Below, piece after piece: positions 3,355 to 20,068 of a DNA stretch of 20,338 nt. This stretch comes from a virus. The stretch spans positions 1 to 20,338 of IMG/VR virus record IMGVR_UViG_3300046810_000121; one strand, given 5' to 3'. Position 1 is the first letter of the stretch. Each line of letters begins with the position of its first letter. Made by a program: the position numbers and the translations under genes. Below the pieces are notes generated by a model. The model searched no databases, was not told the origin of the DNA, and was given only the letters and a program-made list of their open reading frames with translations.

Positions 3355-6300
3355 GCACCACCTTCGCGTCCCTCGGCATTGAGGTGAACTCCTCGTCGGC
3401 ATCCAAGGCGGCTGACGATCTCGACAAGCTGGTCGATTCGGCGGTCGATGCTGAAAAAGCCATTGATGATCTCGGCAAGTCGGGCGAAGGACTGGCCAAC
3501 ACTGGCAAGAAGATCAGTCAGGCCGAGAACGAGGTTGCTCAGGGTATCGACAAGGCCACGGGCGCCAAAGAGCGCCAGGTCGATGCCAGCCGCAAGGCCG
3601 GTGCCAGCGCGGCTAGTGAAATCGCAATCATCAGCCAGCTCGACAAGGCGATGTCCGGCAACATCGGCAGCATGGAGCAACTGATCCAGGCTGAAGGCTT
3701 GCTGGAGCGCGCTCGCAAGGGCGGTCTCGTCACCATCGAGCAGCAGGAGTCCTATCAGGATCGGCTTGGCAAGGCATATGAGCGGATCGAGAAAGCTGAA
3801 GCCAAGGAAATGGCTCAGAAGCAGCGGCTGATCGATGCTGAAAACCGTCAGATCGAAGCGTTGAAGCGTACGGTCAACGGCATCGACCCGGTCACTGCGA
3901 AGCTGGCAAAGCTGGAGGCGCAGGAGAAAGCGCTCAACGATCTGCACAAGGCCGGCCAGATCGACGCGACTCGTTACGGTGAGGCGCTGGCGAAGATCGG
4001 TAAAGATCGTGACGGCCTGACCGCGACAGAAACTGCATTCGACAAGCTGAAGCTCGGCACCCGCCAGGCGCAAGAAAACGTGATGCAGTTGACCAATGCC
4101 CTGCAGTCTGGGGATTGGGGTAGCGGTGCGCGGGCTGTTGCTCAGTTGGGCGCTGGTGCGGGCGCGTCCGCCAAGAGCTTGGCCGCAGCACTGATTCCTG
4201 CAGGCTTGCTGGCTGGCGTCCTCGGCGCTCTGGGCTATGCCTACTTCGACGCACAGAAGCAGGCCCGCGAGTTCAACGTCGCCATCAATGGCGGATCGAA
4301 CGATGCTGGGCAGAGCATTGCCAGTCTCAAGGTGATGGCTGACACCTCCGGGGCGATCACTGAGAACTTTGCGGGCGCTCGCGAGGCGGTGATTGCCCTG
4401 GCTTCCGGTGCCGCTAACAGCGGCGTCCAGATGCAGAACCTGGCTCAGGCCGCCGCAGCAATAGGTGAAGTGACAGGGAAGGGCGCTGGAGACATCGCCA
4501 AGTCGCTTGCGAATGCCGGAGACACCGCCACAGAAGCAGCGGAGAAGATCAGCGACCAGTATGGGCTGCTTACCTACGAGCAGTACCAGACGATCAAGGC
4601 GATTGATGATCAGGGTGACCATCAGCGAGCGCTGGACACCTTGAGTGAAGATCTCAATCAGTCGGCCCAGGAGCGCTTGAAGCATTACCGCGAATCCCTG
4701 TCCGATATCGAACGCGATTGGGATCGGGTTAAGGTGGCCATCAAGGGCGCCTACGCCGAAGTCCGATCAGAGATTTTCCCAGATCTTGCCAAGCAGATCG
4801 AAATCACCCAGCGCGTGCTGGATACCCGGAAGGGCGGCGGTGTCACAGGCGCGTTATCGAACGGATTGAGTTGGCTGAACTCTTCTTTGGGGCTGGGCGA
4901 GGGACAAAACGACGATTCGACGCCGGCGCTGGAGGCTAGGCTTGCAGGGCTGAAGGCTCGTTTGTCGGCAAGCGAAAACAACGCTGCCGCCACCGGTGAA
5001 GAGACTCGGGCAAACAAGGAGTTGATCGCTGTCCAGAAGGAACTGGATAAGCAGATGGACAACCTCAATCCGCTTGCGAAGCGTGAGGATGCTTACAAAA
5101 AGCTCAACGATCAGTTTAAGACGCTTTATGAAAACTCCGATAAGACCGGCCAGAAATCTCCGTTGCTTGATGGCGTGTTCTACGACGGGGAGAAGTTCAC
5201 TGGTGGAGCCTACGACAAGCTGCGCAAGGCGATTGACGAGCAGAAAAAGGACCCCAAGGCAGCGGCAGGCAGCGTCGATCTATCTGGTTTCAATGACTCG
5301 AAAAACGCGCTCAATGCCGTGCTCGCCGAGTACAAAAATGCTCAAAAGGATTTGGAGGCTTCACAAAAGGCTGGGCTAATCTCGCAGGCTGATTATCTGC
5401 AAGCTCGCGAAGCCATGATCGGCAACGAGCGCGACGAGGTCACTGCTGCGTATGAGGCTGAGATCGCCGCACTGGAAGCAGCTAAGAGCAAGGCAGGTAC
5501 ATCGGCCGCGCAGCGCATCCAGCTTGACCAGAAAATCGCCGACGCCCGGGCTGCCATGGTCAAGGTGCAGCAGGATGCTGACACCGAATTGAGCGTGCTG
5601 GCGAAGAACGAAGAAGGTCGGCTAAAGAAGCAGGCCGATGCCGTCAATACCTACAGCAGCGCGTTGCAGCAACAAGTCAAAACTCTGCGTGAGCAGGGCC
5701 AGCGTGCGGCGGCGGGCATCGGCCTGGGTGATCGTCAGCGCGATCTGATGAGCCAGCAGAACGGCATCGACGATCGCTTCAATCAGCAGAGGCTGGATCT
5801 GGCGAACCAGTACGGCGATGGCTCGCGCGGCATGAACCTCGACGAGTACACGCAGAAGCTGGCGGCACTGAACGTAACCCAACAGGACCTGCACGACACG
5901 GTTCAAGCCAACTACGACGAGATGACGGCAGCCCAGGGTGACTGGAGTGCCGGAGCGTCTTCGGCATGGCAGAACTACCTCGATTCCGCACGGGACGTTG
6001 CGGGGCAGACTAAGGGCTTGTTCACCAGCGCCTTCAGTTCGATGGAAGACGCGATCGTCAATTTCGCCATGACTGGGAAACTGTCGTTCGCAGACTTCAC
6101 CAAATCGATTCTGGCGGATATGGCGCGCATTGCCACTCGGCAGGCCAGTTCGGCATTGCTGAGCAGTCTGGTTGGGGCCGCTACAAGTTACTTCACAGGA
6201 GGCGGGGCGACGGCGTCTGCAACGGCAGGCGGGGCGGAGGCCGGGGCTCAGAGTTTTGGCAGTCAGTTTGATGCCAGCTCAGCATCCGTGTCTTTCGGTG

Positions 6301-6674
6301 GTGGTCGTGCTGTTGGTGGTGGTGTCGAACCGAACACTTTCTACGAAGTGAACGAAAAGGGGCCTGAGCTTTTCAATCAGGGCGGCAGGTCTTACCTCAT
6401 GACTGGCGCGAGTGGCGGTAGCGTCACACCTCTGACTTTCGGTGGCGGGCCAGGGCTTGCCGCAATGTCCGGTACCGGTGGCGGCAACACCTACAACTTC
6501 CCCGTGGCAGTGTCAGTGCAAAACGCAGGCAACGGGGGCGCAGCGAGCACTGAAGACACATCGCAATTGGGCAAGAGCATTCAACAAGCCGCGAAAGCTG
6601 AGGCGGAAACCGCTATTGCCCGAGCGCTTCAACCAGGTGGTTCGATCTGGCGCCTTACAAATGGGAGGGGCTGA
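3351..6674 (+). CDS. Tail length tape measure protein (gpH-like), 1107 aa
   Basis: This is the longest gene of the left tail block and has the usual tape-measure layout. Long stretches are helical and rich in Lys, Glu, Ala and Gln (about residues 20-250, 480-800). There is a hydrophobic segment at about 276-299 (SLAAALIPAGLLAGVLGALG). Residues about 864-925 form a lambda-type C-terminal tape-measure domain with GLFTSAFSSMEDAIVNFAMTGKLSFADFTKSI-type sequence, and the C-terminus is Gly-rich. The protein sets tail length and is ejected at infection. At roughly 0.15 nm per residue, the tail would be near 165 nm. It overlaps the G-T stop (ATGA) and the gpM start by one base. Confidence 0.95.
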   Translation: MSTTFASLGIEVNSSSASKAADDLDKLVDSAVDAEKAIDDLGKSGEGLANTGKKISQAENEVAQGIDKATGAKERQVDASRKAGASAASEIAIISQLDKAMSGNIGSMEQLIQAEGLLERARKGGLVTIEQQESYQDRLGKAYERIEKAEAKEMAQKQRLIDAENRQIEALKRTVNGIDPVTAKLAKLEAQEKALNDLHKAGQIDATRYGEALAKIGKDRDGLTATETAFDKLKLGTRQAQENVMQLTNALQSGDWGSGARAVAQLGAGAGASAKSLAAALIPAGLLAGVLGALGYAYFDAQKQAREFNVAINGGSNDAGQSIASLKVMADTSGAITENFAGAREAVIALASGAANSGVQMQNLAQAAAAIGEVTGKGAGDIAKSLANAGDTATEAAEKISDQYGLLTYEQYQTIKAIDDQGDHQRALDTLSEDLNQSAQERLKHYRESLSDIERDWDRVKVAIKGAYAEVRSEIFPDLAKQIEITQRVLDTRKGGGVTGALSNGLSWLNSSLGLGEGQNDDSTPALEARLAGLKARLSASENNAAATGEETRANKELIAVQKELDKQMDNLNPLAKREDAYKKLNDQFKTLYENSDKTGQKSPLLDGVFYDGEKFTGGAYDKLRKAIDEQKKDPKAAAGSVDLSGFNDSKNALNAVLAEYKNAQKDLEASQKAGLISQADYLQAREAMIGNERDEVTAAYEAEIAALEAAKSKAGTSAAQRIQLDQKIADARAAMVKVQQDADTELSVLAKNEEGRLKKQADAVNTYSSALQQQVKTLREQGQRAAAGIGLGDRQRDLMSQQNGIDDRFNQQRLDLANQYGDGSRGMNLDEYTQKLAALNVTQQDLHDTVQANYDEMTAAQGDWSAGASSAWQNYLDSARDVAGQTKGLFTSAFSSMEDAIVNFAMTGKLSFADFTKSILADMARIATRQASSALLSSLVGAATSYFTGGGATASATAGGAEAGAQSFGSQFDASSASVSFGGGRAVGGGVEPNTFYEVNEKGPELFNQGGRSYLMTGASGGSVTPLTFGGGPGLAAMSGTGGGNTYNFPVAVSVQNAGNGGAASTEDTSQLGKSIQQAAKAEAETAIARALQPGGSIWRLTNGRG

Positions 6675-7772: not shown

Positions 7773-8537
7773 ATGCGAAAGCACATCTTGAGCGCGATCC
7801 AGGCGCACGCAGCGGCCGAGTACCCGAAAGAGTGCTGTGGGCTGCTGCTGGCGATCGGGCGCAAGCAACAATATTTCCCCTGCATCAACGTCTCCACCGA
7901 GCCGAACGATGAGTTCCGAATCGATCCTGAGCAGTACGCAGCGGCCGAAGACGAAGGTGAAGTAATCGGCATAATTCATTCACATCCGGACGCCACCAGC
8001 AGGCCGTCACCGCGTGACCTCGCCATGTGCGAAGCGACGGCCATGCCGTGGCACATCCTGAGTTGGCCAGAGGGCGATCTGCGCACCATCGTCCCGACCG
8101 GTGATGTGCCACTGCTCAAGCGGCCATTCGTTCACGGCGCGTGGGACTGCTGGCAGGTCTGCGCGGACTGGTACAAGCGCAAATGGGGGCTTGAGTTCGA
8201 GGCCTTCAAGCGCGCAGATGGCTGGTGGGAGAGCAAGGACAACACCAGCTTGTATGAAGCGAACTATGAGGCAGCCGGCTTCTACCGCGTCGACCAGCCG
8301 CAGCGCGGCGACATGATCGTGATGGAAGTGGGGCGCACCGTTTACCCAAATCACGCCGGGATATTCCTCGGCACTGATCCTACGCTGCCCAGTGAGGATG
8401 CGGCGACGTTCGGCCCCGGGCCGTTCCTGCTGCACCACCTGTACGGCAGGCCATCTGAGGTCATTGTCTTCGGCGGCCCGTGGCTCGACCGCACGCGGCT
8501 AATCCTCAGGCACAAAAACGCACCCTCAAACAACTGA
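7773..8537 (+). CDS. Tail tip protein K: JAMM metalloprotease-like plus NlpC/P60 domains, 254 aa
   Basis: The protein has two domains. The N-terminal JAB/MPN domain has E20 (YPKECCGLLL) and H69-x-H71-x7-S79-x2-D82 (HSHPDATSRPSPRD), the complete JAMM zinc site. The C-terminal NlpC/P60-type domain has the candidate catalytic C126 in GAWDCWQVC and H194 in PNHAGIFLG. Lambda gpK has the same arrangement. It acts during tip assembly and probably trims the peptidoglycan or a tail protein. Both active sites look intact. The gene starts one base after gpL, and the next expected gene, I, is displaced by about 2.3 kb of accessory genes. Confidence 0.92.
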   Translation: MRKHILSAIQAHAAAEYPKECCGLLLAIGRKQQYFPCINVSTEPNDEFRIDPEQYAAAEDEGEVIGIIHSHPDATSRPSPRDLAMCEATAMPWHILSWPEGDLRTIVPTGDVPLLKRPFVHGAWDCWQVCADWYKRKWGLEFEAFKRADGWWESKDNTSLYEANYEAAGFYRVDQPQRGDMIVMEVGRTVYPNHAGIFLGTDPTLPSEDAATFGPGPFLLHHLYGRPSEVIVFGGPWLDRTRLILRHKNAPSNN

Positions 8538-8562
8538 TGCGGCATGGCCGCTGGAAACAGCG

Positions 8563-8787
8563 ATGAAAGAGATGTCTGATTGGCTGGAAACGCAGAACAC
8601 TGCCAACCTCGCTCGCTTCGCGAAAAGAGCTACTCGGGACTTGGAGCAGGTGATCGTTACTCGAGCGATGACGGAGGCGGCAATGGAATATGTTTACAGC
8701 CTCTACGAGCCGTCGATCTCTACCGATCTATTGGAAGAGGTTTTTCGCATCATGGCAGCTCTTCAGCCTCGGGGTCTGGAAGCGTGA
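8563..8787 (+). CDS. Small hypothetical protein, 74 aa
   Basis: It lies 25 bases after gpK in the same direction. Two close ATG codons (8563 and 8572) are possible starts, and the ribosome site in front of either is weak. The product is soluble, charged and helical (LARFAKRATRDLEQVIVTRA, then STDLLEEVFRIMAAL) with no signal peptide or membrane segment. I do not recognise a family. Its 3' end overlaps the convergent minus-strand gene by 38 bases, so it marks the left edge of the accessory insertion. It could be an accessory gene or the remnant of a tail gene. Confidence 0.5.
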   Translation: MKEMSDWLETQNTANLARFAKRATRDLEQVIVTRAMTEAAMEYVYSLYEPSISTDLLEEVFRIMAALQPRGLEA

Positions 8788-9364
8788 GCATCGCGTCTTT
8801 CACCTTCTTGGATATGTTGTCGAGGTTAGCTAACACTTGTTTTAGATCGGCAGTCGGCGATGTCAGGGGGATTAACCCTGAGACCAGTTTGAGTGCTGAG
8901 TAGGTGATGATAAGGCTCACTGAAAGCTGCTTCAGATTGTGCAGGGTGAATTCTTTTATAACTTGGGAGTCGTCGCTGTTTCGCCTCATGACGTTGGAAG
9001 CACTGGCTGTGTCTTCACCTTTTTCGGATGGGTACCACTGCCAATGTGCCACCTCGTTGCGTAATTGAGATAGCTTACGATAATCACCGATCGCCAAAGT
9101 GAGGCGAGAATTCAGGTCGGGGTTTATCGCAGGAGATCTTGTATTGGCGAGGTCCAAAATGGCCTTCGTCATTCCACCAGCCTTTAAATTCAGCGACTGC
9201 ACGAGTATGTACGCAGCAGACCGGGACGTTCCGGAGAGAGTCATAAATAGTTCAAGAAGCGGGTCGTCGCAGAGCGCATGATTAATTACAACTTGGCCGA
9301 TCTCCTGCTTCATCGCATCGCTAGGCCCTGCCTCGTATCCCCATTTTTCGCTTTCTTCTCTCAC
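8750..9364 (-). CDS. HEPN-motif accessory protein (candidate RNase / defence or moron gene), 204 aa
   Basis: GTG 9364 is chosen because GGAGG lies at 9370-9374, five bases upstream. The frame stays open to a TTG at 9445, but without a ribosome site. The protein is helical throughout. Near residue 102 it has QLRNEVAHWQWYP, an R-N-x3-H motif of the HEPN type, within a helix after YRKLSQL. In HEPN ribonucleases the Arg and His form the catalytic pair of a dimer, and such proteins occur in toxin-antitoxin and abortive-infection systems. An acidic, Ser-rich loop follows, then a long hydrophobic helix LKQLSVSLIITYSALKLVSG. It runs antisense to the tail operon. Its HEPN identity is inferred from motif and helix pattern only, and a non-catalytic HEPN-like fold is also possible. 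Confidence 0.72.
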   Translation of the reverse strand: MREESEKWGYEAGPSDAMKQEIGQVVINHALCDDPLLELFMTLSGTSRSAAYILVQSLNLKAGGMTKAILDLANTRSPAINPDLNSRLTLAIGDYRKLSQLRNEVAHWQWYPSEKGEDTASASNVMRRNSDDSQVIKEFTLHNLKQLSVSLIITYSALKLVSGLIPLTSPTADLKQVLANLDNISKKVKDAMLTLPDPEAEELP

Positions 9365-9404
9365 ATTGACCTCCAGGTCATAAACGCGCCGATATTGGCG
9401 CAAT

Positions 9405-9437
9405 CCCAGTCCTTGGGCTTGCAGGCAAAGGACTGGG
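9405..9437 (-). promoter_or_regulatory. 10-bp perfect inverted repeat upstream of the HEPN-motif gene
   Basis: CCCAGTCCTT (9405-9414) pairs perfectly with AAGGACTGGG (9428-9437) around 13 bases. It lies about 40-73 bases upstream of the chosen GTG start. It has no following T-run in the minus direction, so it is not a simple terminator. It could be an operator for a repressor or a leader RNA hairpin. Confidence 0.45.
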
Positions 9438-9509
9438 GAATCCAATGCGTGAGGGCAGGAGGCTACTATCAGCAGGATACGTGTCCATCCTCGCGATAGA
9501 CGCTTAACC

Positions 9510-9809
9510 TCAGATCATGCACGCATCGAAATTTGCATTCAGATCACTTAGGTCGTCCGATAGGGACGCACCAATGTACGAGGCTAATCGGCAAAGGTAT
9601 TTTTCGTCGTCTTTCGTGTAGGCCTGCTGTGTTTTTGCCTGAAAAGGGACGTGCTCTTTCAGTATTTTTTCCAGACGAGGACTCATCTCGGTTTTTGAAA
9701 GGCCCGCACTGAGTACCTGCGCCAGCTTCTTAAGTTGATGTCCCGTTGCTGGAGGTGATGGAGTGGCTGCTAGCAACTTCGCCTCTAACGACGCATTTTG
9801 AGAAATCAT
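9510..9809 (-). CDS. Hypothetical accessory protein, 99 aa
   Basis: The ATG at 9809 overlaps the stop of a short upstream frame in an ATGA junction (9806-9809). The ribosome site is weak, so coupling may drive translation. The product is soluble and mostly helical, with a proline-rich linker (ATPSPPATGHQ) and a helical KLAQVLSAGLSKTEMSP segment. It has two cysteines, one near the C-terminus. No family is recognised. It precedes the HEPN-motif gene on the same strand, 145 bases away. That order resembles a small partner gene followed by an effector, but nothing in the sequence proves a link. Base composition is visibly more AT-rich than the flanking tail genes. Confidence 0.6.
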   Translation of the reverse strand: MISQNASLEAKLLAATPSPPATGHQLKKLAQVLSAGLSKTEMSPRLEKILKEHVPFQAKTQQAYTKDDEKYLCRLASYIGASLSDDLSDLNANFDACMI

Positions 9810-9981: not shown

Positions 9982-10242
9982 TCAGTCAGTCGAGTAGATG
10001 CACCAATTAATGGCATGCGCGTTTTTGGCAAGGTATTTAGCCAACACCTCCTCTCCCCAGAAGGTAATCCTTCCATCTGGAGATTGAACCGCCAGCAATA
10101 TAGGCACCTGAGGGAAAAACTTTCTAAAATAAGCGGTAGTTTCTTCTCTAGATCTTTCAGATGAAACCGCTTGCGGACGAACCTTCACGGCAGCGAATGC
10201 CAATCCACCAACTACGAAATATGCACCGTTAAAATCCGACAT
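9982..10242 (-). CDS. Small hypothetical accessory protein with hydrophobic N-terminal segment, 86 aa
   Basis: ATG 10242 has GGAG at 10249-10252, seven bases upstream. This is far better than the upstream in-frame start at 10302. Residues about 7-22 (AYFVVGGLAFAAVKV) are hydrophobic but short for a membrane span and not a clear signal peptide. A basic stretch follows, then a beta-like half, VPILLAVQSPDGRITFWGEE. No family is recognised. It is the first gene of the minus-strand block, divergent from the lipoprotein gene across 132 bases, which should hold the promoter(s) for both. AT-rich codon use suggests it came in with the cassette. Confidence 0.65.
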   Translation of the reverse strand: MSDFNGAYFVVGGLAFAAVKVRPQAVSSERSREETTAYFRKFFPQVPILLAVQSPDGRITFWGEEVLAKYLAKNAHAINWCIYSTD

Positions 10243-10374
10243 AATTACTCCATTTCCGATTTGTGGGCAGAAAGCTACTATTAATGGATCCAATCTGGCC
10301 ACTGTGTTTTTTGCCAGGCTGGATGTCTAAACAGTACCGCGATAAAGTGCCTCTTTCCCACAGGAGTGACCTGC

Positions 10375-19233: not shown

Positions 19234-19959
19234 TCAGCGTGGACCTGCAGGAGCTAGCTTTGTCACAAACCCCTTTCCGGCGCAGGTCGAGCAGTCATCC
19301 CGCGCACTAAAGTTGTCGAGACAATCCGGGCAAATACAGAAAGCTGCCGATTCAATGTGAGGTCGCACTTTTTCAAAAGCGCGTAGATTCCGCTCCTCCT
19401 GAGCGACCTGTGCTGCATCTATAAGCGCCCGGTAAGCATCGGCATCGGATAGTGGTCGGTGCGTTACGCCAGCGATCATTCGTTCGGTCTCTACCAACTG
19501 ATATCGGCGGCCATTCATTTCCAGCACCAAGCCTGAAATCCGCCCAATTTTCCGAGAAAGATTCAGAGTCAGCCGCATACCATCAGCAGCAGAATAGACC
19601 TTGCCGTCGTAGGCGAAGGAAGCGCCGCGCGGTTCATCGCTTTCGAAGTTGAAGATTGACCGGCTGATGGTGCCCAGCAGATTCCCGTTGTCGATCTGAA
19701 CGACATCATAGGTAGAGGCGCCGCGGTAGTGCCCGGGCGAGTTCTGCAGCTCCTCGACGGCGTGCCAGTACGCGGCGTTTGCCATTTCGTTCATGTCGAA
19801 TTGCTCAAGCTGGTCGATCAGGCCCTCATCGCGAAGCGTAGCTGCCATTTCGTGGAGGGTTTCCCGATGCCCCTCTGGGTTTTGCATACGGAAGTCCTGA
19901 TCGTCGAGAGTAGCGCGCCATCGCTGGAGCCGTAGGGTTTTTGCCTGGTCGAAATTCAT
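19234..19959 (-). CDS. Probable SOS-regulated protein with C-terminal zinc ribbon, 241 aa
   Basis: ATG 19959 is chosen because a LexA box lies 22-42 bases upstream; the in-frame start at 20067 would put the box inside the coding region. A ribosome site is not obvious. The N-terminal 110 residues are helical and charged (MNFDQAKTLRLQRWRATLDD, LHEMAATLRDEGLIDQLEQF). A beta-rich middle follows (YDVVQIDNGNLLGTISRSIF, RISGLVLEMNGRRYQLV), then a helix. The C-terminus has C210-x2-C213 and C223-x2-C226 (CPDC, CSTCAGKGF), a DnaJ-like zinc ribbon. The family is not recognised, and a nucleic-acid-binding or regulatory role is only a guess. It may belong to the prophage's right end or to the host. Confidence 0.75.
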   Translation of the reverse strand: MNFDQAKTLRLQRWRATLDDQDFRMQNPEGHRETLHEMAATLRDEGLIDQLEQFDMNEMANAAYWHAVEELQNSPGHYRGASTYDVVQIDNGNLLGTISRSIFNFESDEPRGASFAYDGKVYSAADGMRLTLNLSRKIGRISGLVLEMNGRRYQLVETERMIAGVTHRPLSDADAYRALIDAAQVAQEERNLRAFEKVRPHIESAAFCICPDCLDNFSARDDCSTCAGKGFVTKLAPAGPR

Positions 19960-19981
19960 GCTGCGGGGTTCGCTGTACAAA

Positions 19982-20001
19982 TACTGTATGCGCGTACAGT
20001 A
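19982..20001. promoter_or_regulatory. LexA (SOS) box
   Basis: TACTGTATGCGCGTACAGTA contains CTG-N10-CAG, the LexA operator spacing, with near-perfect dyad symmetry and the TACTGTAT/TACAGTA flanks usual in Pseudomonas. It lies 22 bases upstream of the minus-strand zinc-ribbon gene. A possible -35 (TTACTG) overlaps the box in the minus direction. LexA cleavage after DNA damage should open this promoter. Confidence 0.85.
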
Positions 20002-20068
20002 ATCTAGGCGAGAAAGGTGGGCGAGGGTGAGGCGACGAACTGTAGCGGTGCGGCTGCTTTCGGCCATG

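Follow-up and report, generated by a model that had tools for sequence, protein, structure and literature searches.

A HEPN-like gene and its convergent partner in a prophage tail operon: a candidate defence and self-immunity pair

What is the role of a gene that runs antisense inside the tail operon of a prophage? The question is raised by a complete IMG/VR record of 20,338 bases, referred to here as the window. The record contains a lambda-like tail operon of a Pseudomonas-type prophage. In the direction of the operon, the genes ahead of the antisense gene are major tail protein, chaperone, tape measure, M, L and K. Beyond it lie the lipoprotein, I, J and fibre genes. These names rest partly on gene order and partly on homology.

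An antisense gene with a conserved R-x4-H motif

The antisense gene occupies positions 8750-9364 of the minus strand and encodes a HEPN-like protein of 204 amino acids. The reading frame is intact. It starts with GTG at 9362-9364, and the sequence GGAGG (9370-9374) is located 5 bases upstream. A first-pass annotation had described the reading frame, its start and its antisense position in the tail operon, and all three are confirmed. That annotation had missed a partner gene at 8563-8787 (plus strand) and a conserved leader upstream, both of which are described below.

The protein matches phrog_26374 (family E 1.7e-37), to which no function is assigned; it qualifies for no curated family in Pfam, NCBIfam or PADLOC. 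Relatives were found at 37 loci in viral contigs, in two genome contigs (one titled Pseudomonas sp., the other a Methylotenera MAG) and in three phage records. The phage records are all from P. aeruginosa phages, two of them versions of one phage. Within the genus to which the Pseudomonas sp. locus belongs, six of 350 genomes carry a relative. Neither the gene nor the leader upstream of it gave a plasmid match.

HEPN proteins have an R-x4-6-H motif, with a polar N, D or H following the arginine, at the end of helix-3 where the loop to helix-4 begins (PMC3710099). The window protein contains the sequence QLRNEVAHWQW. Hence, R102-N-E-V-A-H107 is a candidate catalytic R-x4-H motif with a polar residue after the arginine. 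It is encoded at 9044-9061 of the minus strand (R102 codon 9059-9061, H107 codon 9044-9046). In 21 aligned relatives, which share 19-91% identity with the window protein, residues R102, H107, W108 and W110 are invariant. Residue 103 is N in 19 of the 21; the two most distant relatives have H. The first-pass annotation had pointed to this motif and had staked its reading on conservation of the R/H pair among homologues; the pair is kept throughout. Judged from the alignment, the motif is beyond chance. The C-terminal sequence PxPxAEE is also invariant. We do not read this as a sign of function because the codons overlap the coding sequence of the partner gene.

The AlphaFold2 model of the protein (pLDDT 85.6) has a long helix, residues 82-107, that ends at H107 and is preceded by two further helices. 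Hence, in the predicted structure, the motif is positioned at a helix end as the HEPN rule describes. Behind the motif, the model has a beta-hairpin (residues 119-140), and the earlier description of an all-helical protein does not stand. Searches of the PDB with Foldseek gave no significant match, and no HEPN protein was among the best 50 matches listed. The best viral match in BFVD was A0A4Y5TZQ9 (E 1.2e-3), an unnamed protein. Of 15 Pfam families that were matched weakly, HEPN_Cthe2314 was matched by the largest number of members (4 of 21, with a best E of 0.025, below the cut-off). HEPN_Swt1 was matched by one member (E 0.048). Local hhalign comparison with HepT placed the two motifs in register, with scores of 18-20 versus 18-23 for the best decoys. 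The acidic Ex3[KR] motif of many, though not all, HEPN families is absent; E21 is nearly invariant, being lost in L121 and L129, and there is no K or R at +4. Taken together, the motif, its position and the weak profile matches make HEPN membership probable. The earlier reading, a HEPN-like RNase that limits rival phages, is compatible with these observations. By analogy, the protein is probably an RNase that cuts RNA through R102 and H107.

It is fairly unlikely that the protein is instead a helical, non-HEPN protein with a coincidental R-x4-H. Such a protein would act by binding and could, for example, block virion assembly in the manner of Tab, which binds the tape measure protein (PMC10884400). 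The lack of a HEPN fold match and the weak profile scores fit this reading. So does the company that the gene keeps, since the cassette described below is also home to numerous small proteins for which an enzymatic role is unlikely. Conversely, coincidence does not sit well with an R/H pair that stays invariant in relatives as distant as 19% identity, where the arginine is followed by N or H, and that is positioned at a helix end. The presence of two HEPN families among the 15 weak Pfam matches also argues against it.

The convergent partner gene

The gene opposite, here called p74, is located at 8563-8787 of the plus strand and begins 25 bases after K, although its exact start codon is uncertain. 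It encodes a 74-residue protein of family phrog_25599, and we consider it a candidate inhibitor or self-immunity protein. The 3' ends of the HEPN-like gene and p74 overlap by 38 nt (8750-8787); in relatives, the overlap is 38-107 nt. The structure model of p74 (pLDDT 67) is too uncertain for use.

The first-pass annotation had stated that no nucleotidyltransferase antitoxin was adjacent. Domain and family searches of the window agree, and found no nucleotidyltransferase (MNT) domain in the neighbours of the HEPN-like gene. A HEPN-MNT pair is hence ruled out. Conversely, the implication that there is no antitoxin next to the gene is probably wrong in substance, given the linked convergent gene.

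Of 30 distinct loci, 26 carry p74, in each case convergent with the HEPN-like gene and in the same place. One of the other four loci is cut by a contig end (L098), two have another convergent gene (L121 and L129), and L014 has an unrelated neighbour and no recognisable p74. The two genes occur together at three tail-operon sites. Most loci have them between K and I. They are between L and M in L010, L030 and the P. aeruginosa phages, and between the chaperone and tape measure genes in L028, L050 and L151. In the non-overlapping part of p74, dN/dS is 0.06-0.14 where computable. Thus, p74 is a real gene under purifying selection. Purifying selection likewise acts on the alternative partner in L121 and L129 (dN/dS 0.20).

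Searching viral contigs with p74 alone identified 42 loci, of which 39 have the HEPN-like gene. In the other three (L160, L166 and L175), p74 is intact and the HEPN-like gene has been deleted to between its last few and about 30 codons. Hence, none of the 42 loci has p74 away from the HEPN-like gene or its remnant. No locus of the main clade showed the reverse situation, a HEPN-like gene kept with p74 lost. The three phage records with HEPN-like relatives are the same three that have p74 relatives.

The main difficulty for a functional pair is the uneven divergence of the two genes. Between L003 and L010, pN is 0.04 for p74 and 0.40 for the HEPN-like gene. A near-identical p74 beside a strongly diverged HEPN-like gene is contrary to tight co-evolution of an inhibitor and its target. 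Thus, p74 may act broadly, or the HEPN-like protein may not be its target at all.

Conserved leaders and an exchangeable cassette

The 86 bases upstream of the HEPN-like gene (leader A, 9365-9450, minus strand) are more conserved between loci than the protein. They include the Shine-Dalgarno sequence noted above and hairpins, the main one at 9405-9437. The leader A pattern matches 96 stretches of viral contigs. A profile of leader A matches once per locus, and never twice, in 137 loci, many of which are overlapping or duplicates. In the main hairpin, both bases have changed in two of the pairs, and 96.9% of cells are paired. Leader A is hence probably structured as RNA. Searches of Rfam gave no family at gathering level and only sub-threshold chance matches. 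A crude scan for the sigma-70 consensus upstream of the HEPN-like gene in the window gave no match. At its opposite end, the cassette has a second conserved stretch, leader B (8501-8562, plus strand), made up of the 3'-terminal part of K and the spacer before p74. It has an inverted repeat, GCGGC-ATG-GCCGC, at 8539-8551.

One 35% relative of the HEPN-like protein has neither leader A nor p74. It is encoded at 5977-6621 (plus strand) in L014/L053, antisense beside terminase-like genes (named from sequence), and its placement resembles that of tab in phage JBD26.

Behind leader A, we find some 22 antisense gene families that have no BLAST match to one another. Many encode proteins of 75-95 residues, which are unlikely to be enzymes. 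Most of the families have a small convergent ORF opposite. Among 66 non-redundant loci, 103 of 180 pairs with the same antisense family share a partner family (shuffle mean 13.4, maximum 35, 2000 shuffles, with no correction for common descent). When the HEPN family was left out, the figure was 34 of 60 (shuffle mean 4.3, maximum 16). Antisense families are thus usually tied to their own convergent partner, far above shuffles. Convergent overlap occurs at 54 of the 66 loci, a count that is partly built in because partners were picked by a stop near that of the antisense gene. Partner ORFs in L060/L143, L065/L072 and L073/L141 lack purifying selection; hence, those partner calls may be wrong. 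At four loci where the cassette lies behind the chaperone gene (L080, L091, L096 and L146), the 3'-terminal part of K has come with it. Thus, the cassette left the K/I site in one piece.

Other cargo deserves mention. In L059 and L119, a 157-158-residue antisense protein behind leader A has the retropepsin-like motif LLDTGAD (DTGAD) and, from its sequence, is a possible aspartic protease. Ten of 82 partner proteins are BLAST-similar to part of the tail-tip protein J, mostly its C-terminal region (L067, L077, L094, L107, L061 and others). These might be tail-tip decoys or J derivatives. In the window, antisense ORFs at 9982-10302 and 9510-9809 (both minus strand) are also upstream of the HEPN-like gene. 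The former matches phrog_23950, a family found antisense and directly behind leader A in L063/L064. A 50% relative is located upstream of the leader of L143. Accessory genes may hence be stacked in the window upstream of the HEPN-like gene. A 277-residue antisense gene downstream of the lysis region (19234-20067, minus strand; phrog_19595, function not assigned, E 2.8e-95) is possibly another accessory gene.

We suggest, tentatively, that lambda-like Pseudomonas phages have in their tail operons an exchangeable cassette whose two ends are conserved leaders carrying inverted repeats. Some 20 convergent defence and self-immunity pairs, each with its own inhibitor and with HEPN-p74 among them, could be swapped into it. 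If so, the cassette would be a reservoir of uncharacterised anti-phage systems.

The same mobility could mean that p74 is an unrelated accessory gene of the tail operon, which travels with the HEPN-like gene through exchange at the two conserved ends. Movement of the cassette as a unit is expected under this explanation, as are the near constancy of p74 beside diverged HEPN-like genes and its persistence without them. Nevertheless, we consider it unlikely; p74 is found only beside the HEPN-like gene or its remnant, and the association between partner and antisense families across the cassette well exceeds that in shuffles.

Proposed mechanism and comparison with known systems

On balance, we favour the view that the HEPN-like gene and p74 form a prophage-borne defence and self-immunity pair. 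The late tail operon should be silent in the lysogen. In that state, the antisense gene would be expressed from its own upstream region to yield the HEPN-like RNase. The enzyme would stop an incoming phage, probably after sensing a late (structural) product, by analogy with a known tail-protein trigger, and probably with RNA cleavage through R102/H107. On prophage induction, the tail operon would be read through the partner gene. Hence, p74 would be made and the HEPN-like gene would be transcribed against. By the same analogy, p74, perhaps helped by antisense transcription, would keep the HEPN-like protein from stopping the phage's own burst. Several observations speak against this view: the uneven divergence of the two genes, L014 with its lack of a recognisable p74, the absence of a significant HEPN fold match, the decoy-level hhalign scores and, from a weak test, the missing sigma-70 match.

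A conventional toxin-antitoxin addiction module would also predict a linked pair whose partner is kept where the HEPN-like gene is lost, the reverse not being seen in the main clade. Here, p74 would always restrain a HEPN toxin and the outcome would be prophage maintenance, not defence. We regard this as quite unlikely. The genes are convergent, hence not co-transcribed. As a gene of the late tail operon, p74 should be off in the lysogen, precisely when an antitoxin would be needed.

PADLOC gave no match in the window. We found no description of the HEPN-p74 pair, or of the cassette, in the open-licence papers searched. The novelty is provisional because the search covered open-licence papers only. 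If the defence and self-immunity reading is correct, each partner should be undeletable unless its antisense gene is also deleted. Furthermore, the rule of leader A, antisense gene and convergent partner would flag many more defence and self-immunity pairs that are missing from defence databases.

Among known systems, HEPN/MNT (HepT/MntA) shares the R-x4-H motif, which is RNxxxHxY in HepT and RNxxxHWxW in the window protein. Conversely, the window has no MNT nucleotidyltransferase, and the partner is a small helical protein encoded on the other strand. AbiF/RCd22, of a C. difficile prophage, also has a structured RNA upstream of an Abi protein, which the authors link to an ancestral Cas13 (PMC12373285). 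Despite that precedent and the conserved, covarying hairpin directly upstream of the HEPN-like gene, it is most improbable that leader A serves the HEPN-like protein as an RNA antitoxin; the leader is not HEPN-specific, being common to some 20 unrelated antisense families, and has no Rfam family at gathering level.

The Tab/anti-Tab genes of P. aeruginosa phage JBD26, one of two proven systems arranged in this way, are convergent, with an annotated 3' overlap of 47 nt. Here too, a minus-strand defence gene is located in a late operon and a small plus-strand partner lies behind a late gene. Tab blocks tail assembly; anti-Tab interacts with Tab and cannot be deleted alone (PMC10884400). However, Tab has 83 residues, is not a HEPN protein and is encoded between terminase genes. 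A promoter of its own precedes tab; a conserved leader precedes the window gene, where the crude sigma-70 scan gave no match. BLASTP and HMM searches found no homology to Tab or anti-Tab.

The second proven system is Tha/Ith of the S. aureus prophages 80alpha and PhiNM2. In 80alpha, tha encodes a HEPN RNase whose motif is R-N-x3-H and whose trigger is a minor tail protein; its inhibitor is the product of ith, annotated xis (PMC11087260). As in the window, a small convergent gene lies on the opposite strand and can be kept alone. The 3' overlap is 64 nt for tha/ith and 38 nt for HEPN-p74. A phage with Ith alone evades Tha (PMC11087260), which would explain why p74 is kept without the HEPN-like gene. 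There are also differences. Tha has 301 residues, including an N-terminal part, compared with 204 for the window protein. Furthermore, tha belongs to the cI operon and ith is driven by a promoter of its own; in the window, the HEPN-like gene is antisense inside the late tail operon, of which p74 is part. There is no homology to Tha or Ith (best BLASTP E 1.0; HMM scores of about 0 bits). If our reading is correct, the logic of a HEPN effector and an opposite-strand inhibitor has a sequence-unrelated counterpart in Pseudomonas phages. Judged by gene arrangement and sequence comparison, HEPN-p74 is laid out like Tha/Ith and Tab/anti-Tab and is a member of neither.
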